Positions 4,313-21,280 of a stretch of 64,000 nucleotides of DNA are shown here, piece by piece (position 1 is the stretch's first letter; each line of letters starts with the position of its first letter). This DNA comes from Lodderomyces elongisporus (taxonomy: Eukaryota; Ascomycota; Pichiomycetes; Serinales; Debaryomycetaceae): the NCBI RefSeq assembly GCF_030384665.1, contig NC_083680.1, forward strand, positions 963,001 to 1,027,000, read 5' to 3'. A program made the translations under genes and the position numbers. The notes below the pieces were generated by a model. That model saw only the letters and a list, made by a program, of their open reading frames with translations. It was not told the origin of the DNA and did no database searches.

Positions 4313-5899
4313 ATGTCTTCTACCTTTGTACAACAGGTGGCCTCGCTTGGCCAGGAAATTGTTCCCTACTTTACAAAATGGTACACAGTACTCATTCTCT
4401 TGGTTGTAACATACATTGCTGCATTCAACATCAAAGACGCATACATGACATGGAAGTTGGGTTGCAAAAACCCATTATACTACAAACCAGCAGGTTACAC
4501 TGGTGTCTATTCACTATACGAAATAATCCAACGTAAGAACAAGGGCGAGTTGGCTGAGTTTGCCCAGGAGGCATTTGACGAATACACTACAAACACCGTT
4601 TACGTCAAGATTGGTGGCTTGATGAAGATTATGTTCACCGTTGACCCCGAAAACATCAAGGCAGTATTGGCCACTCAGTTTAATGACTTTAGCTTGGGTA
4701 TCAGACACGCCCACTTTGCACCATTATTGGGTGACGGTATATTCACCTTGGACGGCGATGGATGGAAGGACTCGCGTGCCATGCTCAGACCACAGTTTGC
4801 TAGAGAACAGATTGCCCACGTTAAGGCCTTGGAACCACACGTTTTAATGTTGGCCAAACAGATTGCCAACACCAAATATGAAACATTTGACTTGCAAGAA
4901 TTATTCTTTAGATTTACCGTTGACACTTCGACAGAATTTTTGTTTGGTGAATCTGTCCACACATTGTATGACGACAAAATTGGCGTTGCACCACCCAATG
5001 ATATCCCTGGCAGAGAAGCCTTTGCCGATGCATTCAACTTTTCACAACACTATTTGGCAACCAGAACATATTCACAAGTTTTCCATTGGTTATTCAACAG
5101 CAAGGAGTTTAGAGAAAATAACGCCAAGGTGCACCACTTGGCACAATACTTTGTCAAGAAGGCGTTGAATTTTACACCTGAAGAATTGGAGGAGAAATCG
5201 CAGGATGGATACACATTTCTTTACGAGTTGGTTAAGCAAACTAGAAACCCAAAGACATTGCAGGATCAATTGTTGAATATTATGGTTGCTGGAAGAGATA
5301 CTACTGCTGGCCTCTTGTCCTTTTGTATGTTTGAGCTTGCACGCAACCCAGAGATTTGGCAAAGACTCCGTACTGAAGTGTTGGACAACTTTGGCGATGG
5401 GTCAACAAAGGAGCAGATTGACTCGATTACATTTGAGAATTTGAAAAAGTGTGAGTTTTTAAAGTCTGTGCTCAATGAGACCTTGAGACTTTATCCTTCT
5501 GTGCCCATCAACTTCCGTACTGCCACTAGGGATACCACCTTGCCACATGGTGGTGGTTCTGATGGGTCCAAGCCAATCTTTGTGCCCAAGGGTTCAACTG
5601 TTGCTTATGCAATTTACAAGACACATAGGTTGGAAGAATACTATGGTAAGGATTCGCAAGAGTTTAAGCCAGATAGATGGACTGATATGAAGCGTCTTGG
5701 ATGGGCCTACTTGCCATTTAATGGTGGACCAAGAATCTGTTTGGGACAGCAGTTTGCATTGACGGAGGCTAGTTATGTGTTGGCAAGATTGGCGCAATTG
5801 TTTCCAACCTTGCAGAGTAGAGACGAGACGTATCCACCTAAAAAGTGTATTCATTTGACAATGAACCACGCAGAAGGTGTATTTGTAGGAATGAAGTAA
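4313..5899 (+). CDS. CYP52-family cytochrome P450 (alkane/fatty-acid omega-hydroxylase type)
   Basis: This is a microsomal P450 of the fungal CYP52 (ALK) group, which hydroxylates n-alkanes and fatty acids at the terminal carbon using NADPH-P450 reductase. The protein is 528 residues, the normal length. A single N-terminal membrane anchor spans about residues 20-40. The I-helix oxygen-binding motif AGRDTTAG is at 326-333 and the K-helix ExxR is E389-R392. The haem-binding loop FNGGPRICLG has its thiolate Cys at 476. The GRDTT form and the tail around the haem loop are CYP52-like. The ATG at 4313 follows a CA-rich leader and is the first ATG in the frame. The individual ALK paralogue cannot be told from sequence alone. 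No clear oleate-response element was recognised upstream. Confidence 0.95.
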   Translation: MSSTFVQQVASLGQEIVPYFTKWYTVLILLVVTYIAAFNIKDAYMTWKLGCKNPLYYKPAGYTGVYSLYEIIQRKNKGELAEFAQEAFDEYTTNTVYVKIGGLMKIMFTVDPENIKAVLATQFNDFSLGIRHAHFAPLLGDGIFTLDGDGWKDSRAMLRPQFAREQIAHVKALEPHVLMLAKQIANTKYETFDLQELFFRFTVDTSTEFLFGESVHTLYDDKIGVAPPNDIPGREAFADAFNFSQHYLATRTYSQVFHWLFNSKEFRENNAKVHHLAQYFVKKALNFTPEELEEKSQDGYTFLYELVKQTRNPKTLQDQLLNIMVAGRDTTAGLLSFCMFELARNPEIWQRLRTEVLDNFGDGSTKEQIDSITFENLKKCEFLKSVLNETLRLYPSVPINFRTATRDTTLPHGGGSDGSKPIFVPKGSTVAYAIYKTHRLEEYYGKDSQEFKPDRWTDMKRLGWAYLPFNGGPRICLGQQFALTEASYVLARLAQLFPTLQSRDETYPPKKCIHLTMNHAEGVFVGMK

Positions 5900-15500: not shown

Positions 15501-16963
15501 CTATTTTTAGTAACTTTTCTCTCTATATATCATCAACCTTCTACTTCTTCTCCTCCTCTTCATCATCTGCATCTCTTGTAAGAAAATTGACAACAGAAAC
15601 AAATAGAAAAAAGAAACATGTAAAGTAATGAGCATCACGCGACATTGTATTCCATACTTGAAATATTGGTCTTGGCAGCGTCTAATACGTGTGTAAATAA
15701 AGTGACAATAGTTGATAAAAAAAAGAAAAGTACAAGAATTGTTGAGTGCACATTAAAAAAAAGTGAATTCAAATATTCTGTAGCAAAGTTATCACAAAGC
15801 AAGAAACAAAACTATCACAAAAACAAAAAAACAAATAGTTTTAATTATTAATTTTTTTTTTCTTTTTTTTTTTTTTGGAGGATCCGAGGACATCAATTCC
15901 ATACGCGTACACGCTCTTTTGTCGTTCCGATAGCGGAAGGACTATTACCAAAACAATACATAAATATATATATATATATAATATATATACATACATCTGA
16001 GGAGACACAATCACCATCAGAGAAAACAAAAAAGCAGAAAACAAAAACGAATATGAGATACGCGTAATCTCATTTTTGCCTATATTCTGTTGATTTGCTA
16101 TACCGAATAACACTTTGAATGTGATGCCTCTTCTTTTTGGGGGGGGAGAGATTTTGCAAGAGAAGTAGAAACATAGCTAGATAATGATAATAAGCAAATG
16201 AAAAACTACTGAAGACAGAGAAACAAAAAAAGTAATAGCATTGGCCTAAAGATGCACGGCAACAACTATATGCAATCTGATAAAGCATACACTATTTAGC
16301 TCAGTATCAATCTATGTATATTCTCCACATACTTTTCATTCTCAGTTTTTTTTAGCTTTTTGTTATAATTAATATTATTTTGTGTTTTCCACTTGATACT
16401 ATAAACTACTTAACCATTGGCTTTTAGTATATATAGATCTATCTCGTATCGTACCCCCCTTCCCCTTCCTCTTCCCCACCTTTTTAATTTTGTCTCCCAC
16501 TTCTTCTATTTCTTCACCTTCGCTTTCTCAAATCCCTTATAATTTTTTATTAGGTTGGAATCGAAATTAATTGGAGCTGAGCTATTAGATTTGCTTTCGA
16601 CTAATTTCTTATTTTCTTAATGCAATAATTCAAAGAAGATATACAAATCAGTATATAGATGTCTAATGAATTATACATTGACCCTATACCTAAGAACAAA
16701 CAAGAGAGCAAAGATCAACATTCCCCTTAAAACATTATTAAGTTTGTTGCAACAACACGCTCTTTGCGCATCAACACATAGACGTATACTCTCCTTCACT
16801 ATTGTCGCTAAAGTACAAAATTATAATAATAATCTCAACATAATATTCAGTTTATTATCTACTGTATACTATACTGCTTCATTATTAATTTCTTTTTTTT
16901 ACTTCACATTTTTCATCAACTTCATCAACTTCATCAACTTCGTAATTATCATCCTCCTTGCAC
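12531..16963. other. gene-poor region, 4.4 kb
   Basis: This is the longest stretch without a supportable gene. It contains A/T runs, CTAACC and GAAC short repeats (about 13230-13260), a CAA run (about 13558-13588), a GCAGTT/GCAGTA hexamer repeat (about 13633-13667) and TA microsatellites. Every frame is short and low-complexity. Three ACGCGT sites (14112, 15903, 16060) occur without an adjacent gene. It could be the long 5' region of the LicD-type gene, an origin or centromere-type region, or host an RNA gene; nothing decides this. Confidence 0.6.
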
Positions 16964-17125
16964 TTATTCTGCCTTAACAACACTCTTTCCTGCACTCGAA
17001 CTCCATCCCCAACTGGCAATAAACTTCTTATACAACCAGTATATAACCAATCCAAGCAAGATCCATCCCAACACTTTACTACCACTACCCTGTTGCAACT
17101 GCGGATCCAGCTCAGGGTCTCCTAG
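16964..17125 (-). CDS. in-frame readthrough extension with tail-anchor-like membrane segment
   Basis: Directly after the UGA of the small spliced gene, in the same frame, 53 sense codons run to a TAA at 16966-16964. They contain no ATG, so they cannot be a separate ordinary ORF. The product is hydrophilic and Gly/Ser/Gln-rich at first, then has a hydrophobic segment VLGWILLGLVIYWLY (residues 75-89, counting the decoded stop as 57). The basic pair KK, a Trp/Ser-rich stretch and a short Lys-containing tail follow. That is the layout of a C-terminal tail anchor. The stop context is TGA CTA G, the strongest readthrough context known in fungi and animals. One CTG codon here (residue 63) would be Ser. 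Open codons and membrane segment are seen; translation is inferred. Confidence 0.6.
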   Translation of the reverse strand, partial: LGDPELDPQLQQGSGSKVLGWILLGLVIYWLYKKFIASWGWSSSAGKSVVKAE

Positions 17126-17128
17126 TCA
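17126..17128 (-). promoter_or_regulatory. candidate programmed stop-codon readthrough site (UGA CUA G)
   Basis: The stop and its 3' context read AAA TGA CTA GGA on the minus strand. UGA followed by CUA(G) is the leaky context behind readthrough isoforms of several fungal and mammalian proteins, including peroxisomal forms of metabolic enzymes. A GT...AG pair (GTAATG to CTAG) spans the stop and would remove 18 nt in frame. That is far shorter than any spliceosomal intron I would accept, so readthrough is preferred. Confidence 0.6.
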
Positions 17129-17562
17129 TTTGGCATTACCTTGCTTTGGAGGAAACCCACCATCCAATGGAGCAACGCCATCAGCAGGCTCACATTTACA
17201 CCATTCATCCTTTGGATACTGGTTCATTGCTGCAGGAATGTGTTGACCACAACCAACCCAGGTCTTTCCTTCTATAATACACCTAATTGTTAGTATTTAT
17301 AAACTGGAAAAAAAAAAAGGAAAAGGAAAAAAACCACTAATAACACAATATCCACTCTTTAATAATTTTGGAAAATAAAAAACCCATCTTCTGTTTATGT
17401 GTAGCAAAAAGGTTGAAAAAAAAACTTGCCATCAACCACATAGATTTCAAACTTCCAAAACTCCTTCCATTATAATCTCTTGCTATGCATGATTTGTTCT
17501 TGTTTTCCCTGTGTTCTTCTTTCTTTTAATGGATTTTCAAAGACATACGACAAATTGGACAT
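17126..17562 (-). CDS. small two-exon Cys/His protein, 56 residues, ending at UGA-CUAG
   Basis: Exon 1 is 17562-17549 (ATG TCC AAT TTG TC). The intron is 17548-17283, with donor GTATGT, branch site TACTAAC and acceptor TTAG. Exon 2 is 17282-17126. Exon 1 ends in phase 2 and exon 2 resumes in the matching phase. The product starts MSNLSCIIEGKTWVGCGQHI and continues through PKDEWCKCEP to GNAK. C16-x2-H19 and C33-x-C35 form a plausible metal site. The dense W/C/G/P motif content looks like a conserved fungal small protein, but I cannot name the family. The branch A lies only 7 nt from the acceptor G, which is short but workable for yeasts. The next in-frame acceptor, TATAG, is phase-incompatible with this exon 1. 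Confidence 0.75.
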
Positions 17563-18991
17563 TCAGCTGATCTACACATTGTATCTTTTTTGTTTTGCTG
17601 TTGCTGCTGCTGCTGCTGTTTCTATTTGTAGATATATATGTATATATATGTGTGAGTATTGTAGTTTTCAATGATTCTGTATTTGATAACAAAACCAGAG
17701 TAAAGTGGAAAATTGTGGTTCCTTTTATACTATTTTTACCTTGCTTCTCCCTCTTTCTCTCTTTAATTTATTTTATTTTTTTTTACCTTCCTCTATTCTG
17801 CTTTACTTTTTTTTTTTGGGGTGTGGCACGGGGTTCGTGATCCATTCAACGGGGACGCATGATGTCTGATGTCAGAGAAAGTGCAAAAGATGGAAAAGGA
17901 AAAAAAATATATATGTATGTATGTATGGGTCGAAGTGACAAATTAGGAAAGCAAACTCGGGTTTTTACGTAATCAGACCCAATCTTTTAGTGAAAACAGT
18001 GACTTGAAAATTACATCTACAAAACATCTAGCTAAGAGAGCTTATTGAAAAGGATATCTTCTTTTTACTTATTCTTTTTTTTCATTATCCTTTTGTCCTT
18101 TTCCAATAGGTGCAACTTCCTAGGCCCCCCCCCCCCGCCCCCGCCCATTTTTATTTATTCATTAGATATTGCATCGGACAACAGCAAATGTCAACGGACA
18201 TTATTGTGCGTTCAAACTAGTTGCAATCTCTTTTTATATTATTACATTCCAGCTATTATAGGTTTAATCAAACATCTAGTAGACTATATTTCATTTTTGA
18301 ATTACCTATCTTTTCTCTCGAACCATCGAGCAGTTCAAACGGGGCAGTTCGTTGGCAGAATCTATTTATTTTTTTTTATTTTGAGTAACTAAACGGACTT
18401 GAAGAAAAGAGGAAAAAATAACCGGGGAGAAATATATAGACAGGAAAGAAAAAACATACACTTGAGCGGGCGACAAATAAACCTCTATCTGTCATTGGAT
18501 GGATACTCATCTAAAGCCACATTAGAGAAAGAAAAAGAAGAAGAACAAGAAGAACAAGAACAAGAACAAGAAGAAGAAAAATTTTAAAAGTTATAAAAAT
18601 TCATAAAAATTATTTCCTAAAACGTACAAGTTCGGCCGCTCATTGCTTTATTACTCCCTGGTTTTTGTGGATACCATCGGCCGCACTCTACTTTTGCCAT
18701 CTAATACTATTCAAAGGTCTATACATCGGATAATACCGTAATAAATTATCGCTTTAATCCTGCAACGCCATAGCCAATCAAACAAAAAGGACAAAAAGAA
18801 AGCAAAGAGTTTGGCTCATCATGTTTTCTTTTTTTTTTTCTCATTTTTTTTTTACTAAAACTCAAACAACTATTAAATAATATTAATAAAAGCTATGTAA
18901 TTTTTTGCTTTTTTCGAGGCGGTGGAAGGGGGGGGGGGGGGGGGAGTAACGGTTTTTTGGTCCATGTCTATCAATACCATAGTCTATACTG
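17563..18991. other. intergenic, 1.4 kb, with C-rich and G-rich tracts
   Basis: This lies between the ATM1 stop and the start of the small spliced gene. It contains a run of 12 C followed by two shorter C blocks (18125-18147), a run of 17 G (18928-18944), an AAGAAC/AAGAAG repeat (about 18535-18580) and two CGGCCGC sites near 18633 and 18679. No supportable gene is seen. A GTATGT on the minus strand near 18456 follows a short open stretch but has no usable acceptor frame. Confidence 0.6.
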
Positions 18992-21280
18992 CTATACACC
19001 TGCATCACGCTTCTTTTGCTCTTCTCTGGCCTCAAATAATCTCCTCTCTTTTTCCTCTTCATCCTTTATCCGCTGCTCCTCTTCAAGTCTCAACTCCTTC
19101 TCCACATCCAAATTCTCTTGTATATTCCACAACTGTGCATATAACGACTCCGCATTGCTCAACAACTCGGAATGGGTACCTTCTTCTTGCACCTTACCCT
19201 TGTTCAACACAATAATCTTATCAGCATCAGCAATAGTTCTCAACCTATGCGCAATAGAGACATTGGTCCTTTGATCCTTTTTGAAAATACCTCGTATAGT
19301 CTTGAGCAACGACTGCTCCGTATGCGTATCCAATGCAGACGTTGCTTCGTCGAAAAATGTAATTGGCGCATTCTTCAATAAAAGTCTCGCAATTGCCAAT
19401 CTTTGCTTCTCACCTCCAGAGATCATCATTCCTCGCTCTCCAACAATAGTATTGAGCCCATCTGGTAGATCCTTAACGAGTTGATCAAGTTGCACTGCAG
19501 AAATGGCCTTGCGTATTTGATCATCTTTAGCATTTAAATCACCATACCGGATATTCTCAAGAATTGTATCGTTAAATAATGGTGTTTCTTGCGGCACAAC
19601 ACCAACTTTTGATCGAAGCGACTCAAGTGAAACTTGCTTGATGTCTTGTCCGTCAATTAAAATTCGACCTTGATCTACATCGTAGAATCTGAAAACCAAG
19701 CGCAAAATCGTCGATTTACCACTTCCACTAGGCCCAACAATGGCAACTTTCTCTCCCGCGGGAATAGTGAATGTCGCATTAGACAAAATGGGCCGATCTG
19801 GGTGGTATCCAAATGTGACATTTTCAAATTTGATCTCACCGGGCATCAGCTTGTTGAGCACCAATTCCAGAGCATTTTCTGCACTTTGGATCTTAATGGG
19901 CACGCTTTGCAACTGGAACAAGTTCTCCATATCCAATAAGCTTTGCTTCATATCTCGATAAACGCTTCCCAAAAAGTTTAATGGAACACTCAATTGAAAC
20001 ACCAATTGATTGATCAAAACCAAATCACCCACGGTTAACCCACCATCAATAACACCTTGGCAACCCATATACATCATTGCAGTTAATGCTGACGTAAAAA
20101 TGAAATTTTGCCCTGCATTTAAGTATGCTAAACTTGTGGCAACTTTAACACTTGCTTTTTCATATCTGGTCAACGCTTCATTATATTTTTTACCCTGGAA
20201 AGCTTCATTATTGAAGATCTTGACACTTTCATAATTGATCAATGAGTCCAACGCTACCGATGCTGCTTGATTATCGGCATTGTTTGCTTGCCTCCTAAAC
20301 TTGGTACGCCAAGCTGTGGTCTGGATCGTAAATATTGAATAAGCAAGCATTGTTGCCAAAGTAACTGCCGCAAAAGAATAACCATAATTCCAACTAAGAA
20401 TGGAACAAACAATACCAATCTCAAATGTTATGGGGATAATATGGAAAACCATTGCATTGAGTACTGAGCTGATTCCCTTCGTACCACGATCAATGGCTCT
20501 AGTTAAACCACCAGTTTGTTGCGACAAGTGGAATTGTAGATCCATGTTTAGTAACCTGGTAAATGTATTTGTTGCTACTCTCTTGATTGCCGATTGCGCA
20601 ACACCAGCAAATATGGCATTACGCAACTCACCAAACAACACAGCACCAAATCGAGCTCCACCATAAGCAAGAATCAAAGACCCAACAACAGTGGCAAATA
20701 CACCAACATCATCGGTCCAATTAACATTCATTTGATCAATTATTTGCTTAAAGAAAAAGGGGACCTGGACATTGAGTAGTTTTGATCCAATAAGCAAAGA
20801 AACGGCAACAACAACACGGATCTTGAATTTCGGGTTGTTCTTGGGCCAAATTGTGCGGAGCAAAGAACGAAGCATAAATACTTCTGAGGTCGATACTTTG
20901 CGGCCAAAAAGTGAATACTGTGAGGACTCCTTTGACTTTGCTTGATCTTGTGAAACTGGAGAGCTTTGTGAGGGTTGCGAATCTTGAGTGGTTTGCGATA
21001 AAGTGGCAGATTTTTTGCTCAGTTGTTGGGGTGTTGAATTATCGCCTCGATTCAATGATGATGGTGATGATGGTGTAACTGGCTTTGATATAGAGTTTGA
21101 CTTATTAGAATTAGTTTCTCCATTGGATCTTAAAGTTGTACATTGGGAAAAAAATCGAAATTTGTAAAGAGTGGTACTCAGTTGAAGTGTTTGTAGCGGA
21201 GCATGACTGGCTATTGTGGATGGACTTTTTAAATAATTTAGTCGTGCTATATTCTTAACCAATGGGCTCCTCAATAGCAT
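18992..21280 (-). CDS. ATM1: ATM1, mitochondrial inner-membrane ABC exporter
   Basis: Atm1 exports a glutathione-linked sulfur/Fe-S compound from the mitochondrial matrix for cytosolic iron-sulfur assembly. The 762-residue protein is a half-transporter that works as a homodimer. A basic, Ser-rich presequence of about 125 residues is followed by a six-helix transmembrane domain (about 155-450). The nucleotide-binding domain has Walker [10 protein letters not shown] from G516, signature SGGEKQ at 621-626, Walker B Asp644 with catalytic Glu645, and the switch His at 678. The C-terminus is a charged Glu/Arg/Lys helix. The N-terminal block [14 protein letters not shown] and overall length match Atm1 rather than Mdl1/Mdl2. 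The start at 21280 gives a typical presequence. Confidence 0.95.

Follow-up and report, generated by a model that had tools for sequence, protein, structure and literature searches.

A possible UGA-CUAG readthrough extension that would give a small Cys/His protein of Lodderomyces elongisporus a tail anchor

A small gene on the minus strand of the Lodderomyces elongisporus genome raises the question of whether the stop codon that closes its Cys/His protein is always the end of translation. The gene lies in a stretch of 64,000 nucleotides (positions 963,001 to 1,027,000 of contig NC_083680.1, assembly GCF_030384665.1), hereafter the window, in whose coordinates its features are given. Its first stop is a TGA followed directly by CTAG, beyond which the frame stays open through a hydrophobic segment. 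Leaky termination at UGA CUA G, by which a minor, tail-anchored form of the protein would be made, is probably the best explanation of this arrangement, because a coding signature spans the TGA, the stop stands in UGA CUA G and no credible intron removes it. According to PMC10586162, the HiFi assembly of L. elongisporus NRRL YB-4239 comprises 16,086,460 bases in 8 contigs with an N50 of 2,328,861, and the genes of this yeast are translated with table 12, in which CTG is read as Ser. Because the total length, number of contigs and N50 of the genome used here match that HiFi assembly, a sequencing error was considered and rejected as unlikely.

The predicted gene begins with an exon of 31 coding bases (17549..17579, minus strand), with its ATG at 17579 and an N-terminus that agrees with the bacterial family described below. 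It is followed by a predicted intron of 277 nt (17272..17548) with a GTATGT donor, a TACTAAC branch point at 17295-17289 and a TTATAG acceptor. The second exon (17129..17271) completes a predicted protein of 58 residues, MCRSAECPICQGKTWVGCGQHIPAAMNQYPKDEWCKCEPADGVAPLDGGFPPKQGNAK, which ends at the TGA (17126..17128) after an AAA codon, with CTAG immediately 3' of it (17122..17125). The extension occupies 16967..17125 and ends at a TAA (16964..16966), so that the conceptual read-through form has 112 residues. The first-pass annotation of this DNA had described the TGA with its CTAG, a frame open for 53 codons from there to the TAA, the lack of an in-frame ATG in the extension, and the hydrophobic VLGWILLGLVIYWLY followed by KK, all of which the sequence bears out. 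Its 56-codon frame ahead of the TGA, built from an ATG at 17562 and an acceptor at 17283, has been replaced. The start at 17562 does not give the N-terminus of the Cys/His family; ATG 17579 with acceptor 17272, giving 58 codons, is preferred because the protein then begins M-C2-C7-C10, as its bacterial relatives do, although these positions themselves belonged to the pattern used in the search for relatives. The acceptor at 17283 (AATTAG, minus strand) directly follows the branch point and gives only 13 codons with ATG 17579; a choice between 17283 and 17272 could make an unproductive message. Just past the TAA, a short tandem repeat consists of three copies of GAAGTTGAT (16911-16941, minus strand). 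Upstream, in the same direction, lies an open reading frame of 762 codons (18992-21280, minus strand), which we take to resemble the mitochondrial ABC transporter Atm1, and elsewhere in the window a plus-strand frame of 528 codons (4313-5899) presumably resembles an alkane-type cytochrome P450.

The first half of the gene can be placed by its relatives. The N-terminus of the yeast protein supplied a spaced search pattern (M1-C2, C7, C10, T14-W15, G17-C18-G19 and H21), which found at least 119 stretches in a collection of prokaryote genomes. Among the matches listed, all were actinobacterial, judged by their titles, except two, from a Thermoflexus MAG and an Acidobacteria MAG, and they yielded 122 distinct reading frames, 120 of them complete, with a stop inside the locus. 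The small actinobacterial proteins share the consensus M-C-x4-C-x2-C-x3-TW-x-GCG-x-H. Cys35, which lies outside the search pattern, is present in the yeast protein and in 120 of the 120 complete relatives among the matches listed, in which P30 is found 91 times and C37 66 times; the yeast protein carries all six motifs of the pattern together with C35 and P30. An HMM was built solely from the bacterial members listed, over their first 38 residues. Against it the yeast protein reaches 50.3 bits, a value attained by none of 300 controls in which the sequence beyond H21 had been shuffled (mean 31.5 bits). By these sequence comparisons the predicted 58-residue protein is a member of this small, mainly actinobacterial Cys/His family, which presumably has a fungal branch, and the gene is regarded as real because its first half belongs to a conserved family. 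The spacing of its Cys and His residues suggests that the protein is probably metal-binding. Neither piece of the yeast protein matched Pfam, in which two bacterial members found matches only below the cut-off; NCBIfam gave matches far below its cut-off only, and no solved structure matched the family. A second match to the pattern, on contig C3, was taken for chance; its frames are broken by stops and it has neither the preceding Cys pair nor the following Cys motif.

The yeast gene differs from these actinobacterial relatives in that it alone has an intron and a post-stop extension. Among the matches listed, a short LFG-type tail ends 59 of the 79 bacterial members of at least 46 residues, and a hydrophobic window as strong as that of the yeast extension occurs in none of the 120. 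Speculatively, the LFG-type tail might touch a membrane.

UGA CUA (G) is a weak termination context (PMC4207609), given as one of high readthrough in both PMC4207609 and PMC12233894. Of the bases that PMC12233894 lists as favourable or frequent in readthrough, this stop has A at both -1 and -2 (a preference given for yeast), C at -5 and AA at -9/-8; at -3 it has A where the same source names G as frequent in strong contexts. RNA structure 3' of the stop was not significant (z -1.5), with 17 of 200 shuffles as stable. Among the 61 genes nearby, TGA CTA is found at the end of none. Of 162,064 non-coding sites, 314 carry CTAG, and 67 of 35,773 codons are succeeded by CTA and then G. The expected frequency of the feature behind a sense codon or at a non-coding site is about 0.0019, and about 2.9 of the 5,740 genes in the genome should end in TGA-CTAG.

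Whether the frame beyond this stop is used as a coding sequence was judged from its codon usage. Log-odds scores were trained on 61 open reading frames of at least 150 codons from a region of 188,720 bases that takes in the window and its surroundings. Against a first non-coding background the extension scored 0.24 per codon and exon 2 scored 0.25, while none of the five alternative frames of the extension exceeded 0.06, which places coding usage in the TGA-spanning frame only. Ten of 630 non-coding open segments scored at or above the extension: the extension itself, one non-repeat segment at 940761 and eight in a repeated stretch. This stretch lies outside the window (contig about 904000-910000), has non-coding frames that score as coding, and is possibly rDNA. 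The background was then retrained with 900-913 kb and the gene itself left out, giving 551 non-coding open segments of 53 codons with a mean of -0.21. None of them reached the extension, now at 0.262, the segment at 940761 coming closest at 0.259. Several of the segments that still rank highest resemble genuine short exons, and their presence among the controls would make the comparison stricter. Coding segments (n=646, each scored with its own gene omitted) had a mean of 0.215, and 61% of them fell below the extension. On synonymous choice alone, 15 of the 551 non-coding segments reached the extension, which stood above 78% of the coding ones. Sliding windows followed a gene-like signal across the TGA, a dip to -0.14 over the hydrophobic part, a recovery, and a fall after the TAA.

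The hydrophobic part itself (17030..17074, minus strand) consists of VLGWILLGLVIYWLY and is followed by 21 residues, KKFIASWGWSSSAGKSVVKAE. As expected of a tail anchor, it would be a single hydrophobic segment near the C-terminus of the conceptual 112-residue form, with hydropathy that is moderate only. Its best 17-residue window, at 1.61, is matched by 220 of the 551 non-coding open segments and is not rare. The proposal of the first-pass annotation that the extension is a membrane tail thus keeps the hydrophobic run followed by KK and loses hydropathy as an argument in its own right. Because such frames often contain hydrophobic segments, the case for an anchor rests instead on the coding signature.

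That signature also bears on the chief rival explanation, in which the gene formerly encoded an uninterrupted membrane protein of 112 residues and a recent nonsense mutation, or a strain polymorphism, now removes the anchor and leaves the remainder as a young relic. Coding usage past the stop is the expected trace of such a mutation if it is young. Moreover, the searches yielded no relative that would tell whether the stop is old. A search of the protein database with the long form (112 aa, with X at the stop) gave five candidates, none at an E value of 0.1 or better, and with the short form no candidate had enough words in common. With a profile built from the yeast protein and two bacterial members, 34 of 45 candidates were hits; the four whose source name bears an organism were all bacterial, and eight of the 34 sequences that were inspected were bacterial-looking. 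A yeast orthologue was thus found neither with the long or short form nor among the organism-named profile hits. The yeast genome has a single copy of the extension, and of 71 stretches that fitted its pattern in viral contigs, translated with CTG as Leu, none was confirmed. The main argument against a nonsense mutation is the context of the stop. With CTA and then G so seldom following a codon, a TGA arising at random would rarely come to lie in UGA CUA G. In addition, 53 codons have been retained without a frameshift or a second stop. A nonsense mutation is accordingly considered unlikely, although it deserves more weight than any other rival.

A second rival is that splicing removes the TGA from some or all mRNAs, whether as a very short intron at 17139-17122 or as a longer one with its donor in exon 2. 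Twelve GTs in exon 2 and 18 AGs between the TGA and the TAA were combined, the enumeration being of GT-AG pairs by sequence. The short candidate, GTAATG...CTAG, removes 18 nt and keeps the frame, as the first-pass annotation had noted, and further in-frame GT-AG pairs are present. The 18 bases contain no branch site, however. CTGAT at 17184 is the sole CTRAY motif anywhere in exon 2 or the extension, and every in-frame pair that spans it either runs to a stop or has a donor off the consensus or an acceptor other than YAG. None of these pairs begins downstream of the Cys35 codon, so each would delete that residue. No credible intron removing the TGA was found among the enumerated pairs, and this explanation is regarded as improbable.

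Least probable of all is that an ordinary 3' untranslated region is open by accident behind a stop context that is never used: open length alone is not rare (frames of at least 53 codons follow the stop of 2 of the 61 genes and open at 1583 of the 18626 non-coding positions sampled), hydrophobic segments are frequent in such frames and the synonymous-only evidence is modest, but no control segment equals the full codon score, and a TGA-CTAG with an open, coding-like extension is expected in only about 0.0002-0.0004 genes per genome when the features are taken as independent and 0/551 is counted as 1 in 552.

Programmed readthrough, as the first-pass annotation had named it, is thus retained as the probable explanation with its coding signature, which crosses the TGA and falls off past the TAA, with its stop context, and with the lack of a credible intron; its original start and acceptor are not, and hydropathy counts for little. 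Under this reading, the spliced mRNA would encode the 58-residue protein ending at UGA in the context AAA UGA CUA G, where the majority of ribosomes would terminate. In a minority, a near-cognate tRNA would outcompete the release factor and translation would continue for 53 more codons. The extension would consist of a linker, LGDPESDPQLQQGSGSK, then a single hydrophobic helix and finally a short basic tail, and the product would be the tail-anchored form. One mRNA would in this way supply the Cys/His protein in two forms, soluble and, in minor amount, anchored. As a rule of thumb, short helices with basic flanks suit peroxisomes or the outer membrane of mitochondria, and either could be where the anchored form lies. 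The predicted gene structure, the family of its first half, the context of the stop and the coding signature are read from the sequence itself; that ribosomes read through, at what rate, and how the product inserts in a membrane, where it goes and what it does are inferences.

The proposal resembles functional readthrough at UGA CUA(G) as described for fungal peroxisomal isoforms and for mammalian LDHB, MDH1, AQP4 and OPRL1 (PMC4207609, PMC12233894). Those genes likewise combine UGA and CUA G with an in-frame extension that carries a targeting element, and the yeast gene has TGA followed by CTAG and an in-frame extension with a coding signature. It differs in that its extension would carry a membrane anchor instead of a peroxisomal C-terminal signal. 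A small gene of Saccharomyces that is expressed through recoding, and was once annotated with an intron, is YJR112W-A/LLP1 (according to PMC12661321), in which the recoding is +1 frameshifting and not readthrough. A guess that YJR112W-A is the S. cerevisiae homologue proved wrong; that protein is described in PMC12419801 as a VanZ-2 lipocone protein. In a literature search covering titles and the openings of abstracts, no yeast gene that gains a tail anchor by readthrough was encountered, nor was anything on translational readthrough in the CTG clade or, relevantly, in Lodderomyces.

More tentatively, and with somewhat less than even confidence, it is proposed that, in a CUG-clade yeast, a small metal-binding protein whose family also occurs in actinobacteria acquires a tail anchor through a conserved UGA-CUAG leak, such that one mRNA would maintain a soluble pool and a small pool at an organelle membrane. 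If this is true, dual targeting by readthrough, so far a matter of peroxisomal matrix enzymes, would take in membrane anchoring as well, and a budding yeast would use UGA CUA G readthrough for a membrane anchor, beyond the peroxisomal signal. The isoform would escape gene finders that end at the first TGA. A Cys/His family common to yeast and actinobacteria, and lacking a Pfam or NCBIfam model, would then need a membrane-bound form.
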